Assembly: GCA_012797725.1 (NCBI GenBank)
Contig: JAAZON010000007.1
Location: forward strand, 1 to 11,133
Reading direction: 5' to 3'
Origin: SAR324 cluster bacterium
GTDB lineage: Bacteria > Bdellovibrionota > UBA2361 > JAAZON01
Length of the DNA: 11,133 nt
In this document: positions 1,164 to 7,143 of the stretch, piece by piece
How positions within the stretch are numbered: position 1 is the first letter of the stretch
How the letters are laid out: the number at the start of each line of letters is the position of its first letter
Position numbers and translations under genes: made by a program
Notes under the pieces: generated by a model
Told to the model about the DNA's origin: nothing
The model's input: the letters and a program-made list of their open reading frames with translations, nothing else
Database searches by the model: none

Positions 1164-1418
1164 CTAATCGATTCTAACTTTTTCAACCTTTGCCACTTTC
1201 TCGGCAAAAAGCCGCAAAGTCTGATTAATTGCCTTTCCCTTAAAATATTCCCTATCTTGATCCGTTCCCGGTTCCAGAATCAAAATATCTCCTTCGAAAT
1301 GATAAGCTGCCACTCTTCTCAATCTATCAAGAAGTCCCAGTTGAAGTTTGTCCTCAAGTTCATTCAGTAACTTTTCCCATAGTACAGGATTGTTGCCTTT
1401 ACTTGACTCGGAGCTCAT
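1164..1418 (-). CDS. Small protein resembling DnaA domain I / DnaX C-terminal domain
   Basis: An 84-aa acidic and basic mixed protein, ATG start preceded by AAGGAAGG at about 8 bases. After a short polar lead (1-11), residues 12-83 follow a pattern familiar from the N-terminal domain of DnaA and the C-terminal domain of the DnaX tau/gamma subunit. The pattern is an LWEKLLNELED helix, a second helix rich in Leu and Arg (LLDRLRRV), a beta hairpin (GDILILEPGT), then a helix and a last strand (LRLFAEKVAKVEKVRI). No AAA+ or DNA-binding domain is attached, so the protein would be a standalone interaction module. Such a protein could bind a replication partner or be a family of its own; the resemblance is weak and rests on pattern recognition. 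It lies downstream of the 95-aa gene with a 64-nt palindrome in between, so it may be separately controlled. Confidence 0.65.
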   Translation of the reverse strand: MSSESSKGNNPVLWEKLLNELEDKLQLGLLDRLRRVAAYHFEGDILILEPGTDQDREYFKGKAINQTLRLFAEKVAKVEKVRID

Positions 1419-1599: not shown

Positions 1600-1887
1600 T
1601 TAGAGTGCAATTTCTTGCACAGCATCTTGCTGCGCTGTTTCGGCTTGCATCAGGATGGCACTCTTGAGACTCTCATAATCGAGATCGAGTGCTTCACAGA
1701 TGAACTTGAATGTTAACGGAGCGTCCGATGGTTCATCTTCCATCAGCCATGACCTTGCCCCTTCTTTCAACTCTCCTTCACCACTAACATAATCCGTGAT
1801 TGCCCGCTGTAAAACAGCGGCTAAGAGTCTTTTCTCAGGAACATGTGCCCCTGCTGCTGGAATTTCCGAATTTGACCAACCCTTCAT
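1600..1887 (-). CDS. Small uncharacterised protein, paralogue of the gene at 3343-3690
   Basis: A 95-aa soluble protein, ATG start with GAGG about 10 bases upstream. The core, residues 17-81, shares a clear pattern with the 115-aa protein encoded at 3343-3690. The shared elements are PE-[KR]-x-x-L-x-x-AVL-x-x-AI, then a W-[LF] pair, then F-x-F-x-x-[IV]-CEAL, then an acidic or polar turn and a final Leu-rich helix. The present protein is shorter in the middle. I recognise this as a type of short protein seen in deltaproteobacterial-like genomes, often with a WF-S and FSF-VCE-LG signature, but I know no function. The arrangement of helices could hold a helix-turn-helix, which would fit a small regulator; that is a guess. 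Upstream lies the terminator-like hairpin at 1927-1971, so this gene probably has its own promoter. Confidence 0.72.
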   Translation of the reverse strand: MKGWSNSEIPAAGAHVPEKRLLAAVLQRAITDYVSGEGELKEGARSWLMEDEPSDAPLTFKFICEALDLDYESLKSAILMQAETAQQDAVQEIAL

Positions 1888-2178: not shown

Positions 2179-3165
2179 CTAATTTGACATATTGTGTATT
2201 TTCAATATGTTAAGACGCTCAAACAGATTCGGTGGACTTAAGAGTACGAATAGGCGAGCCTTAAGAAGCCCTATTAGCTTCTTTCTCATTAATTTTGACT
2301 TATGATCTAAACCCTTTTTCCTCTCTTGGAGCTTTTGTTCCGATTCGTTCAATTTCGTTAGGCTTTCCTTTGTTTTTAAGCAACGCTTTCTTAGCTCATT
2401 AAGTGTTTCCGCGAAGTATTCCATCGGATTTGATTGATTGCTAACTTGCACTTTAACACCAAGAGCATCTAACGCATCTCTCAGTTCCTTCATGTCCTGA
2501 AAAGTCCTGGGAAGCTCCTGTAACCTCGGTAAGCCTTCTAGAATCCCTTCCTCGTAAAACTCAAACTTTTGACTCTCGTTTTCCCTTCTGCGATTTGCAC
2601 CCTTAGTTTCGTCTTGAAAGCCAAGAAAAATTCGCAAGCTGTCTCTAACAGCAATGAATTCTGGAGCGATTCTCAGACGACTAGACTTAATTGCCAATAT
2701 TTGTTCATTAAGAAAATCCAAAGCAAGCATACTTGATTTTAATTCCTCAACTTGCCTGACTAATGGACTTTCACTCTCTGGATTCTCCAAATCCGACACT
2801 TCCTCCACTGTTCTTAAAAACCCAGTGTCAAGCTTTGACTGGAGTATCGCTGGATTATTTTGTTGCAATGCATCAAGTGCATCTAAAAACTTAAGCACAC
2901 TATTTTCAGGGACCCAAAGAAGTTTATGCTTTCTGTCAATTTTCTCAAAGATCTTCTCACTTACTGATAAATCAAAAAGACCCGGGGACGCCATTCTTGC
3001 ATCAGCAAAACGCTGTTGCTTAACATTCTCTCTTATCTCTCGTGCAAGCAGAGCCTTCGCATATTGATCCAGTGGTAATTGAACTATTCCTATAAACAAA
3101 ACAAGCAGCAGGATTGAAAGTCCACATAAACACCATGCCCACCACTTTGGTTTAGTTCTATTCAT
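2179..3165 (-). CDS. Membrane-anchored coiled-coil protein of unknown function
   Basis: A 328-aa protein. Residues 1-8 are basic (MNRTKPKW) and 9-30 form one hydrophobic helix, so it is probably anchored in the inner membrane with the rest in the periplasm (positive-inside rule). The remainder is almost all charged helix. Residues 88-160 are Leu/Glu rich, and 252-300 (LNELRKR, LTKLNESEQKL and following) look like a coiled coil. The end, 301-328, turns hydrophobic (RLFVLLSPPNLF) and could touch the membrane again. I recognise no enzyme motif. An in-frame TAG three codons upstream fixes the ATG as the first usable start, yet no good Shine-Dalgarno sequence precedes it (only CTATAGC). This suggests weak or leaderless translation. 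The 115-aa gene upstream ends at a terminator, so this is probably a single-gene unit. Confidence 0.75.
   Translation of the reverse strand: MNRTKPKWWAWCLCGLSILLLVLFIGIVQLPLDQYAKALLAREIRENVKQQRFADARMASPGLFDLSVSEKIFEKIDRKHKLLWVPENSVLKFLDALDALQQNNPAILQSKLDTGFLRTVEEVSDLENPESESPLVRQVEELKSSMLALDFLNEQILAIKSSRLRIAPEFIAVRDSLRIFLGFQDETKGANRRRENESQKFEFYEEGILEGLPRLQELPRTFQDMKELRDALDALGVKVQVSNQSNPMEYFAETLNELRKRCLKTKESLTKLNESEQKLQERKKGLDHKSKLMRKKLIGLLKARLFVLLSPPNLFERLNILKIHNMSN
2184..2213. repeat. Inverted repeat at the 3' end of the 328-aa gene
   Basis: TTGACATATTG (2184-2194) and CAATATGTTAA (2203-2213) pair at 10 of 11 positions around an 8-base loop. They lie inside the last codons of the minus-strand gene. 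The minus-strand RNA would carry a stem-loop ending just before the stop codon, with A rather than U following, so it is not an intrinsic terminator. It may protect the 3' end. On the plus strand the same bases contain TTGACA, 16 bases, TATGTT, which is promoter-like and would drive antisense RNA; chance is a fair alternative in such AT-rich DNA. Confidence 0.5.
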
Positions 3166-3342: not shown

Positions 3343-3690
3343 TCAATCACGTTTTCTCATTTGCTTAAAATGTCGATTCTTGAAGGCGTTAATAATTCCC
3401 AGACGAAGATACTCAGGGTTAATACCCAAGGCTTCACAGACATTTTCAAATGAAAATACATACTCACGATCGTGGCTTAAAAACCAAACTTGCGTCTCCC
3501 GAAAGGCGGCTGCCTCTTCGGCACGACGAAAGCTCCTACCTGCTAAGAGTAGCTGAATTGCATCAAAGAGTACTGCGGACATAAGTGCTCGCTCTGGTCC
3601 TTCAGCAAAACCTGTGGCCTCCGAAAAATATTCAAATGGTTCTGAGTCTTCAAGATTCAAGAAAAGGAATTCAGTATTTAGCTCCAACAT
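3343..3690 (-). CDS. Small uncharacterised protein, paralogue of the gene at 1600-1887
   Basis: A 115-aa protein starting at ATG 3690, because AAAGGAG lies exactly 6 bases before it. The frame is open up to a TTG at 3825, but that start lacks a ribosome site and the extra 45 residues look non-coding. Residues 1-20 are hydrophobic and acidic in turn (LELNTEFLFLNLEDSE). The core, about 32-101, carries PERALMSAVLFDAI, then a WF pair with SHDREYVF, then FSFENVCEALGINPEYLRLGI. The same ordered pattern appears in the 95-aa protein at 1600-1887, so the two are paralogues. The C-terminal tail (NRHFKQMRKRD) is basic and could touch nucleic acid. The function of the family is unknown to me. The gene has its own terminator and is followed by an extra hairpin. 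Confidence 0.75.
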   Translation of the reverse strand: MLELNTEFLFLNLEDSEPFEYFSEATGFAEGPERALMSAVLFDAIQLLLAGRSFRRAEEAAAFRETQVWFLSHDREYVFSFENVCEALGINPEYLRLGIINAFKNRHFKQMRKRD

Positions 3691-3884
3691 CTTGAACTCC
3701 TTTGATTTTAAAAAAATATTTCTTCCGAACTTGGGATCCTCACAATCCCAGCTCTGTTTAAGATCAAAATCCCTTGGTTCACTTATCGAGACGTCCAGTT
3801 TGGCTCTCAAAATTAAGACGCCCAAGATTAAAAAACGGTGTGCTTTTTTTTATTTAAGCCCCTTTATTGAAGTCGAAAGGTCGC

Positions 3885-3912: not shown

Positions 3913-6021
3913 TTAATACGCATCAGAAGGCGTGAGAATATAACTATATAGGCCTAACTGAATGAACGTCCAAAGCAGCAAAGCCCCCACTATGGCTATT
4001 GGAGGCATCAGTCCCCAAAGTCCTAGAACTATCATTACAACACCAAGAGGAATAGATGTTCTCAAAATAAGGTGTCTTGCAAAAAGTTCTAGGCGACTCA
4101 GTCTAAACAGCCTAGGGATCAAATTAAGAGATCTCGAGAAAAATACAACATCTGATTGGTTAAAATCCCATTTATTTTTATTGAAATAGGTCATTCTAAG
4201 ATCCGCAGCCTCATATACTTGACTAGGATTCTCATCTGATACCAACAGAGCACACGGCTTAAGAAACTCAAGCCTTTCTTGAAAAACCTTATCAGATATA
4301 GCGCCAGTTATTGCCGAAAGCTCCAAACCAATTCTCTTACCCAATTCATCAACCACAGGATTTTCTTCCTTGCTAAGAAGTGAAAGTCGAAGTCCAAGAT
4401 TGTGAAGAGAATCATTTAATACTTTGCCGTCAATTTCAAAGGGGTTTTCCACCGCAAAGCGCGCAAGAAGCTGTTTCCCACAAGCCACGAAAAGCTCTTT
4501 CTCTCGCCTCCCTTCAACGCTATCAAGAGCATCAGAAAGCTCAAAATGCACGCCCTTCGCAAGTAAAACTTCTTCGCTCCCTAACAGAAATAAGGAATCT
4601 TGCAGCTTTCCTTGTAATCCATCGTCTTCAAGCTCTTCCCATTCTGACACTTCCTGAATAGACAAACTACGCTTCCCTTCAGCTATGAACTCTGCAAGAT
4701 CCTTGAACATTTGATTCTTAGACTTGCAAAACATGCTAAGCAACAAAGACCACATTGCCTTTTCATCAACACGTTCATCGAGCACCTTGAAATTCTTAAT
4801 TGCATATCTTCCTGGTGGTCTACTTGCAACATACTCAACAACGACATTCTTGATTCCACCTATTTTTGAAAAACACTCTAGGGGCTTCCCGCAGAAAATT
4901 CCTTCGCGCGCAAGTCTGCTAAAGACCGCGGAGAACCCCATTATAATCACATGAAGACCATGAACAACGAGACTCGCAAGCATGCCTGAAGCTATCACCC
5001 AAGAAATTTTTTCCAACGAAGCTCCTGTGCCAGTCCAGTATAATGCTGCACCAAAAGTAGCAAAGATAATCAAGACAAACGCGATTTGCTCTATACGTCG
5101 CAACTTTTCAATCTCTGGAACTATACCATTAAGACTTGCATTCATTTGTTCGAAATACCCAGCTATGTCTGAATTGAATGGAGTAGCTTCAGTTTGAACT
5201 ATGAAATTTCCTTCCAGCACCCGGGAGCCAGCATAAGTTCGGTCTCCGGCTTTCTTAAATTGCATACTAAGCGAAAAATCATGCCTTCGCTCACAAAAAC
5301 TTCCATGACCGGCAACGATAACAGAGTCAGCAGGCACTATTTCTCCAGGCTTCAAGGCAACTCGCATTTTCTTTTCTATCTTTTCTGTTGGGATTCGATT
5401 TGAGATCTTTTGGCCCTTATTAGCAAAACCTTCTTCATCTTGGGAAGCCAGAGTGCTGAATGGGGCAAGATCGCTTACTGAATATATACTATCTCTTCCA
5501 AAGGTCAGAAGTATTCTGCTCTCAAGAAAATCAACTAACGACAACAAAAAAATCGTGGTTATTGCAAGCTCTGCATGAAGTAATCCCTCACCCAAATAAA
5601 AGGTCGAAATCAAAGCTTGGGTAGCTCCCATAAATAGAGATAGCACTGCTATTAGTCTTAAGATTTTTGCTGACAACCTGAACGACTTTAAGGCATTTAA
5701 ACTAGGACGCCAGTATTGACGTATGCTTTGATACAACTGAGTGGCAAGCAGCAAGAGCAGTAAAATCACATAAGGAACCAAAAGACTTTTTCTGGCTTCC
5801 GGGCCTTTAAATAACACAAGTTCTGTTAATACGATGTTAACGCAAGCAAAAACTCCAACAGCGATACGATTGCCAGATGAAAGGTCTGTTGTTGAAGATG
5901 TGAATGGATAAGAAAAAATTCTCTTAAAAAAAGCGACTATGCGGCTAAGGATTCTTAGCCTCCCCTCGGTATTCTCAGCGAGTGCAATTTCTCGCATCTG
6001 CTCGCTTCCAATTCCATTCAT
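3913..6021 (-). CDS. P-type ATPase-like membrane protein lacking all catalytic motifs (pseudo-ATPase)
   Basis: A 702-aa protein with the plan of a P1B (heavy-metal) or KdpB-like P-type ATPase. Predicted helices lie near 52-74, 81-98, 121-143 and 150-166, then an actuator domain (about 185-305), helices 312-331 and 340-367, a P/N region (370-645), and helices 652-670 and 673-694. The actuator strand LKPGEIVPAD (223-232) and KKAGD (256-260) are kept. However, TGE is DFS (248-250), the membrane CPC is LVV (351-353), and the phosphorylation motif DKTGTLT reads EYVASRP, with Glu396 in place of the catalytic Asp. HP in the N domain is NQ (436-437), TGD is SKE (550-552), and GDGIND reads SDENPS (595-600). 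The P-domain lysine (SDK, Lys578) remains. The frame has no stop or shift, so it is a maintained protein, probably a scaffold, sensor or subunit. ATG 6021 is preferred to the TTG at 6027 because GAG lies 6 bases before it. The gene follows rpmG by 40 bases and may share its transcript. Confidence 0.8.
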   Translation of the reverse strand: MNGIGSEQMREIALAENTEGRLRILSRIVAFFKRIFSYPFTSSTTDLSSGNRIAVGVFACVNIVLTELVLFKGPEARKSLLVPYVILLLLLLATQLYQSIRQYWRPSLNALKSFRLSAKILRLIAVLSLFMGATQALISTFYLGEGLLHAELAITTIFLLSLVDFLESRILLTFGRDSIYSVSDLAPFSTLASQDEEGFANKGQKISNRIPTEKIEKKMRVALKPGEIVPADSVIVAGHGSFCERRHDFSLSMQFKKAGDRTYAGSRVLEGNFIVQTEATPFNSDIAGYFEQMNASLNGIVPEIEKLRRIEQIAFVLIIFATFGAALYWTGTGASLEKISWVIASGMLASLVVHGLHVIIMGFSAVFSRLAREGIFCGKPLECFSKIGGIKNVVVEYVASRPPGRYAIKNFKVLDERVDEKAMWSLLLSMFCKSKNQMFKDLAEFIAEGKRSLSIQEVSEWEELEDDGLQGKLQDSLFLLGSEEVLLAKGVHFELSDALDSVEGRREKELFVACGKQLLARFAVENPFEIDGKVLNDSLHNLGLRLSLLSKEENPVVDELGKRIGLELSAITGAISDKVFQERLEFLKPCALLVSDENPSQVYEAADLRMTYFNKNKWDFNQSDVVFFSRSLNLIPRLFRLSRLELFARHLILRTSIPLGVVMIVLGLWGLMPPIAIVGALLLWTFIQLGLYSYILTPSDAY

Positions 6022-6061: not shown

Positions 6062-6301
6062 TTATTTAGCGGACTTCGAAGAAGCCTCTGCTGCTTCACC
6101 TTCAGTCCTCTGATACTTGACTTTAAGCTTACTGAGCTTCTTCTCAGCAAACTCCACATGCTTTCTTGCGACAGGATCATATTTCTTTAGTGCAAGTTTT
6201 TTTTCGCCCTTATTTTTTTTCTTGTTCTTGCGATTTGTATAAAAATAACCTGTCTTCTCCGATGATACGAGAAACGTAGTTTCTTTTTGAGCCTTTGCCA
6301 T
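6062..6301 (-). CDS. rpmG: 50S ribosomal protein L33
   Basis: A component of the large ribosomal subunit near the E site. The 79-aa protein starts at ATG 6301, with AAGG 9 bases upstream; the frame is open for 22 more codons, but these do not resemble L33. Residues 8-58 match the family: [13 protein letters not shown] (10-22), the basic run [10 protein letters not shown], then [21 protein letters not shown]. There are no cysteines, so this is the zinc-independent form. The usual length is about 50-55 residues, and here a 20-25 residue Lys/Ala/Glu/Ser-rich tail (59-79) is added, which is unusual. The gene stands alone rather than beside rpmB. The pseudo-ATPase gene follows 40 bases downstream and may depend on the rpmG promoter. 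Confidence 0.93.
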
Positions 6302-6699
6302 AATGACTACCTTGAATACACTCGGGCTACCCCCCAATACGCCCATTGTAAATAGTCTCAATTCCACAAATTCGCGATCTTGAGATTGGGGTCTTGATCT
6401 TGCCCTTTTTAAGCTTCAACGCTTACTAGGAGCAGTAAAGGTATAAAAAAAACGACTTTTTTTCAAGGGTTGGCCTTGAGACTTGAATTTAGTATGAATA
6501 ATCCGATTCAAATGGGCCTGGTATTTGACCGAAGCAAGTCAAAATATTGCTCGAAATGCCTTCCTGCCTATTCCTTTGGGGTCGATCTCAGCCCCTATCA
6601 TAAACTAAGACCATTGCTTATATTCGTTTCAAGCCAGCAATTAGATGGTTTCTACTGACTGCTGAAAACGATTCTGACTAATATTAAGTAAGATACAAT
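6302..6699. other. Divergent intergenic region between rpmG and the Smr gene
   Basis: About 400 bases separate two divergent genes. I see a possible rpmG promoter (6438-6466, listed separately) and a perfect 6-bp hairpin, TCAAGG (6463-6468) with CCTTGA (6474-6479), next to it. There is no tRNA: no T-arm or acceptor pair could be found. A plus-strand frame of 62 codons (TTG at 6470 to 6658) lacks a ribosome site and any recognisable motif, so I do not call it a gene. No clear promoter for the Smr gene was found; TAATATTA at 6679-6686 is AT rich but lacks a partner. Confidence 0.4.
6438..6466 (-). promoter_or_regulatory. Possible rpmG promoter
   Basis: On the minus strand TTGAAA (6466-6461) is followed, after 15 to 17 bases made largely of A and T runs around GTCG, by TATACC or TACCTT. 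The -35 element is good (5 of 6) and the -10 is poor. It would give a leader of about 130 bases ahead of rpmG. No better pair was seen closer to the gene. Confidence 0.3.
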
Positions 6700-7143
6700 A
6701 TGGCATTAGACATTGGGTCTCATGTTTGGCTTCGAAGAATTGGAAAGGAAGGAATAATTAGCTCTATTGGCCCAGATGGCATGTACAGAGTTTCTGTTGG
6801 AAGTCTAAGTTTGAGATGCAAAGCTGACGAAATCGAGAAGCTTAGCCCCTCTAAAATGAGGCAAAGAGAGAAGAATCCATCCTCAAAAGCCTCGAAAACA
6901 TCAGAAAGATCTCGCATTTTGAGTCTCGACTTACATGGAAAGACAGTTAATGAAGCTCTTGAAGCAATTGAGCAATGCATCAGTGATGCTATTATGGCCG
7001 GCATTGACGAGATTGAGCTCATCCATGGCCTAGGCACAGGTAAACTACAAAGAGCCGCCCATCAATATCTTAAAGGTTGCAAAGTTGTTCATGCCTTTCG
7101 AGTACTCGATAACAACCCGGGGACAACAATTATACATTTATGA
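6700..7143 (+). CDS. Smr-domain protein with MutS2-like KOW domain (standalone MutS2 tail)
   Basis: A 147-aa protein that matches only the C-terminal part of MutS2. Residues 4-48 (IGSHVWLRRIGKEGIISSIG and following) have the small barrel seen before the Smr domain in MutS2. A charged Lys/Ser-rich linker spans 50-72. The Smr domain spans 73-147, with its diagnostic LDLHG (76-80), HGLGTGKL (109-116) and NPGTT (139-143). Smr domains bind branched DNA or RNA and many are nucleases; in MutS2 they act on recombination intermediates or collided ribosomes. No MutS ATPase or clamp region is present upstream, so this is either a naturally separate protein or a reduced form. The ATG is preceded only by weak AAGTAAGA. 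Its stop is 3 bases from the stop of the convergent pnp gene. Family is sure, target is not. Confidence 0.88.
   Translation: MALDIGSHVWLRRIGKEGIISSIGPDGMYRVSVGSLSLRCKADEIEKLSPSKMRQREKNPSSKASKTSERSRILSLDLHGKTVNEALEAIEQCISDAIMAGIDEIELIHGLGTGKLQRAAHQYLKGCKVVHAFRVLDNNPGTTIIHL

Follow-up and report, generated by a model that had tools for sequence, protein, structure and literature searches.

The window (the whole stretch of DNA analysed here, 11,133 nucleotides from a SAR324 cluster bacterium) carries one member of a branch of P-type ATPases that have become pseudoenzymes. The branch is real, conserved and not explained by decay, and we found no earlier description of it. The phosphorylated Asp is taken as the defining feature of the P-type ATPase superfamily; a bacterial lineage that is kept vertically across an order and has lost the catalytic motifs would count as a pseudoenzyme branch within it. 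Sequence comparison places the origin of the gene among the P1B-type metal ATPases and shows that it has been retained under purifying selection. The conserved motif loss, the fixed genomic place and an inverted pattern of constraint argue for an ancient pseudo-P-type ATPase, and we think it probable that this pseudo-P1B ATPase, orthologous across one order, serves as a non-pumping, membrane-tethered scaffold or conformational sensor. An ion pump would then appear to have been turned into something else in little-known bacteria. The gene and its principal sites are as follows.

3913..6021, minus strand: pseudo-P1B-type ATPase gene, 702 codons plus stop, recognized by its intact frame, motif table and predicted structure
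5152..5424, minus strand: actuator (A) domain, residues about 200-290, with G226, P230, D232, G238, G259 and G265 kept and TGE replaced
5272..5280, minus strand: site of the lost TGE motif, now D248, F249 and S250
4822..4836, minus strand: site of the lost DKTGT phosphorylation motif, from E396 through Y, V and A to S400
4459..4785, minus strand: nucleotide-binding (N) domain, residues about 413-521, the most conserved part of the family
4225..4242, minus strand: site of the lost GDGxND motif, residues 594-599

Predicted fold and lost motifs

The first-pass annotation had proposed an intact P-type ATPase fold in which the catalytic motifs are replaced, and the unbroken 702-codon frame, the motif table and the predicted structure confirmed it. 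The A, P and N domains and the eight-helix membrane plan are all present in the predicted structure, the best structural matches of which are P1B pumps, with KdpB appearing from rank 14 down. In profile searches, the P1B family TIGR01525 matched the protein at 70.6 bits (E value 1.2e-19), which is below its curated cut-off of 346.25, and the KdpB model TIGR01497 gave no match at an E value of 1. No Kdp families were found in a Pfam scan of 10 window proteins and 10 neighbour proteins of one other locus. KdpB, a potassium pump subunit within a complex, shares the P-type fold with the window protein, but it keeps the catalytic motifs and lies with kdpFAC. With the P1B ATPases (CopA, ZntA, ATP7B, HMA4; TIGR01525) the window protein shares the predicted fold, the domain order, the glycines of the A domain and G481, and the pseudo family often shares their N-domain GxG as well. 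It differs from them in lacking the catalytic and metal-site motifs, with LVV at the CPC/SPC/TPC position and EYVAS at the DKTGT position, and in having no Pfam match to an N-terminal metal-binding domain. Its identity to 20 ordinary homologues in the alignment is 15-19%.

We compared 22 pseudo sequences, consisting of 21 orthologues and the window protein, with 24 ordinary ATPases, of which 19 came from loci of the same class and five from databases; two repeat others, leaving 22 distinct sequences. For six of the 19 same-class loci, the source genome has the pseudo form too. In terms of sequence motifs, all 22 pseudo members lack the residues for taking up phosphate from ATP (KTGT, TGD and GDGxND), for dephosphorylation (TGE) and for metal binding in the membrane (CPC), and the His of the HP motif is missing in 21. 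The ordinary ATPases retain these motifs or close variants (SGE, SPC/TPC/APC, SGD), the exceptions being one sequence cut short at its end and one without HP. None of the 21 pseudo loci has D[KR]TGT or GDGxN, and nine other loci recovered by the same search have both. A lone Cys stands in the last column of CPC, that of the second Cys, in seven of the 22 pseudo sequences. In the N domain, 17 of them retain GxG, and its second G is present in 20, the window included. On this evidence the protein would not pump.

The bare Asp of DKTGT is a different matter, being present in 18 of the 22 members; it is Glu in the window and one other, and His and Arg in the remaining two. This suggests that the ancestor probably lost the catalytic engine while retaining the Asp, and that the window protein has gone one step further. 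A cryptic enzyme, in which the lone Asp is still phosphorylated with the aid of substituted helper residues, would draw on this column, but the HAD motifs bind Mg2+ and phosphate, and phosphoryl transfer without them is unlikely. Since KTGT, TGD and GDGxND are missing throughout, the window itself has E396, and the second part of the P domain is some 30 residues shorter in ten members, we regard continued catalysis as highly improbable.

Distribution and descent of the family

Relatives were first reached through the PNPase encoded in the window, which led to metagenome-assembled genomes (MAGs) labelled Deltaproteobacteria, Oligoflexia and Proteobacteria, the five closest at 66-70% identity. 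Searching 80 PNPase loci with the window protein by tblastn gave no match; three proteins of the same kind, 20-24% identical, were present in the PNPase-linked MAGs. Family profiles were then built from four sequences (A3) and afterwards from 22 (A5). Profile searches of 45 genomes, the class-level and phylum-level searches taking in the same set, found pseudo-ATPase orthologues in one order only, where 21 of 28 genomes have them; the 17 other genomes of the class gave none. Members scored at E values of 2.2e-168 or better and the best non-member at 8.5e-59. In two other phyla (282 and 297 genomes, with at most 3-4 candidates scored per genome) a single match each reached 1e-60, and both of these proteins have DKTGT, GDGxND and CPC intact. 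A profile search of a large protein set returned at least 52 others, each listed with the hydrolase domain PF00702; the number of candidates scored there is limited, so the lack of family members among them carries little weight.

A recently decayed, non-functional gene or an assembly artefact in a single strain might have been suspected from a single-sequence search of 5.8 billion proteins, in which 7993 candidates were scored and only two ordinary ATPases, 20% identical at an E value of 1e-3, were returned besides the query. That explanation is refuted and keeps practically no probability, as orthologues in 21 of 28 genomes show the same losses, in the same place, in open frames. All 22 pseudo frames are open (L130, L132 and L139 run to the contig end on the 5' side). 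The alignment of homologues thus bears out a motif loss common to all 22 sequences, and no orthologue (0 of 21) has an intact DKTGT.

In a tree built without the motif columns, the pseudo and ordinary sets were split with 100/100 support, in an analysis for which the tree tool warned of long branches. Common descent of the 22 members, despite this warning, is supported by their shared gene order.

Seven genomes of the order had no detected pseudo gene (G013, G003, G006, G020, G029, G015 and G005). In the first five neither tyrS nor rpmG was detected, both of which were detected in the controls G041 and G046, and the same region is probably incomplete in all five MAGs. G015 has an open hydrophobic frame after rpmG that runs to the contig end. 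Only G005 has tyrS and rpmG and no pseudo gene, on a contig that stops 233 bp past the rpmG match. The apparent absences are therefore mostly missing assembly, and G005 may represent a true loss.

Literature searched at the level of titles and abstract openings yielded no bacterial pseudo-, inactive or degenerate P-type ATPase, and the part of the review PMC10654040 that was consulted makes no mention of a pseudo-P-type ATPase. One parallel is an apicomplexan guanylyl cyclase with a P4-ATPase-like half (PMC6592433, PMC7858053), which resembles the present family in that its membrane part is P-type ATPase-like and linked to signalling, and differs in being eukaryotic, P4-like and a fusion with a cyclase; activity of its ATPase domain is named in the title of PMC7858053. 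Among pseudoenzymes, the pseudophosphatase PHLPP2 (PMC12002173) is similar in that catalytic activity was lost in an ancestor and the protein kept, but it has another fold and is not a membrane pump.

Selection and shifted constraint

Four close pairs of pseudo genes (54-72% identity) had second-position change of 0.15-0.28 against third-position change of 0.63-0.65. NG86 estimates of dN/dS, which had been suggested as a check, could be computed for two of these pairs and came to about 0.16 and 0.20, with dS saturated. Within one and the same pair, second-position change was 0.24 in the pseudo gene, 0.08 in tyrS and 0.28 in a ketosynthase-like neighbour; the difference from tyrS indicates moderate constraint, and the pseudo gene is not slowly evolving.

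This constraint is unevenly spread. Conservation was scored by region relative to the mean of each set, for 22 pseudo and 21 ordinary sequences (three near-duplicates removed), and was 1.30 in the pseudo set versus 0.70 in the ordinary set for the N domain, 0.88 versus 1.29 for the P1 region up to the phosphorylation site, 1.12 in the ordinary and 0.81 in the pseudo set for TM5-6, and 0.60 in the pseudo and 0.76 in the ordinary set for TM1-4, in a comparison that sets orthologues (pseudo) against a mix of paralogues (ordinary). For TM7-8 the pseudo value was 0.81. The constraint is thus inverted, the N domain being the least conserved part of the ordinary pumps and the most conserved part of the pseudo family. 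The family would in effect be a natural experiment showing what persists of the machine once pumping is no longer selected, with the most variable domain becoming the most constrained.

Lengths differ in a similar manner between domains. The N domain has 106-109 residues in all 22 members, and the second part of the P domain has 90-94 residues in ten members and 114-137 in the other twelve. The ten with the shorter form make up one supported clade (L127, L128, L133-L136 and L139-L142), which suggests that the P domain goes on shrinking.

By column, using 22 pseudo and 22 ordinary sequences (two duplicates removed), 28 of the columns kept in at least 19 of the 22 ordinary sequences were lost in the pseudo set, and nine columns are newly fixed there. 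These nine include D415 (22/22), R417 (21/22), E483 (22/22), R521 (20/22) and F613 (20/22), each found in 0-3 of the 22 ordinary sequences. Among the N-domain columns conserved in ordinary pumps, E431 was lost in all 22 pseudo members and H436 in 21. We take these two columns to be ATP contacts, and their loss argues against ordinary ATP binding. The GxG turn, being kept in 17 members, leaves room for a possible nucleotide ligand, which would be bound without hydrolysis.

The eight membrane helices contain no Cys, His, Met, Asp or Glu common to at least 11 of the 22 pseudo members, and the only polar residues shared to that extent are R164, R169, Q354, R643 and R653. The strongest is R164 in helix 4, which is Arg in 15 of 22 and Asp in the window. 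With the eight-helix plan retained in the model, R164 might speak for a protein that has dispensed with the ATPase but still provides a membrane path, as a passive channel, a carrier or a handler of lipids. We consider this very unlikely, as the membrane parts are the least conserved of the protein and share so few polar residues. An ion or metal sensor using a site in the membrane, one of the roles suggested by the first-pass annotation, is likewise made less likely by the absence of shared residues of those five kinds from the helices and by the low conservation of the helices. A re-constrained N domain together with drifting membrane helices is what would be expected of a new cytosolic binding role, not of a transport path. 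For the scaffold or sensor favoured here, the helices would be an anchor, and the A domain, and above all the N domain, would provide the surface on which a protein or small ligand is bound in the cytosol.

Neighbouring genes and possible function

Three other genes of the window, near the pseudo-ATPase, are as follows.

6062..6301, minus strand: rpmG, encoding a C-terminally extended ribosomal protein L33, 40 bp upstream of the pseudo-ATPase gene
3343..3690, minus strand: small all-helical protein of an unnamed family, with a possible helix-turn-helix (HTH); in 14 of 22 loci a relative of it comes next downstream
1600..1887, minus strand: another member of the small helical family, divergent from the first

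The rpmG gene lies directly upstream on the same strand in all 18 loci where more than 351 bases precede the pseudo gene, with gaps of 0-239 bp (median 37); the other four of the 22 loci end 104-351 bases upstream of the pseudo gene and fall outside this count. Its listed frame opens at a GTG at 6367, and by eye the ATG at 6301 is the likely start. The pseudo-ATPase gene is probably co-transcribed with it. A role as an assembly factor for membrane proteins, or one linked to the ribosome, would account for the fixed place behind rpmG, but position is the whole of this argument and ribosomal genes often adjoin unrelated genes in slowly rearranging loci, so we hold such a role to be quite unlikely. 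A metal link by way of zinc variants of L33 was considered and is unsupported, the L33 of the window having by eye no CxxC pair.

The small helical gene (listed frame from a TTG at 3825; likely start, by eye, the ATG at 3690) is the next gene downstream, in the same orientation, at 14 of the 22 loci, lies 2-4 kb away in two and on another contig in three, and was not clearly found in three, one of which has a fragment at the contig edge. The gap to the pseudo-ATPase is roughly 90-280 bp. At E<1e-30 the family occurs in 18 of 21 carriers of the pseudo gene and in none of 24 non-carriers, the latter having weaker relatives (best 9.8e-25); because both genes lie in the same region, this co-occurrence is not independent evidence. 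The large protein set holds 384 relatives at an E value of 1e-3. Most of the 120 listed are without a name, and the named ones among the matches listed come from Dadabacteria, Bdellovibrionota, Oligoflexia, Deltaproteobacteria and Pseudomonadota MAGs. Matches to the PDB are weak and do not settle the fold, including the HTH. This possibly DNA-binding neighbour would be the leading candidate partner of the pseudo-ATPase, a link that is suggestive.

A regulatory or stabilising subunit, paired with one of the cell's own intact P-type ATPases, would also suit the conserved cytosolic surfaces, which fit a protein-protein role. A search with TIGR01525 in 10 of the 21 carrier genomes found a P1B ATPase over the family cut-off in six and a fragment in a seventh (G011). 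However, G012 and G016 yielded no further P1B match, and the one in G031 is weak and lies in a 924-aa frame; these three MAGs are probably incomplete. In the 22 neighbourhoods, which comprise 269 ORFs, P-type ATPase matches at an E value of 1e-3 are confined to the 22 pseudo genes, and no ORF has DKTGT. We therefore regard a partner subunit as unlikely. Selection for a non-pumping role, as first claimed, is upheld by the motif loss shared by all 22 members, the fixed place and the low second-position relative to third-position change; of the roles then suggested, the sensor of metals or ions and the partner subunit are both weakened, and a regulator or scaffold remains. In its most specific and quite tentative form, the scaffold or sensor would be a pump turned once, long ago, into a membrane-tethered signalling protein, expressed with L33, whose N and A surface reports to the small DNA-binding partner and so couples membrane or nucleotide state to gene expression. 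Automatic annotation may label such proteins metal transporters, which could give misleading predictions of metal resistance.

Three further genes of the window were noted. The 328-aa protein at 2179-3165 (minus strand) has by eye one N-terminal membrane helix and a charged helical remainder, matches no Pfam family over the cut-off and has similar proteins in three of the 22 neighbourhoods, including the window. At 1164-1418 (minus strand) lies an 84-aa protein without a Pfam match that presumably resembles, by eye, DciA-like proteins; small proteins of its size sit nearby in other loci (cluster c5), a likeness of size and place. The 147-aa protein at 6700-7143 (plus strand) corresponds only to the C-terminal part of MutS2 (MSSS plus Smr, positions 642-781 of TIGR01069), without the MutS2 ATPase, and its cluster is present in 12 of the 22 neighbourhoods.
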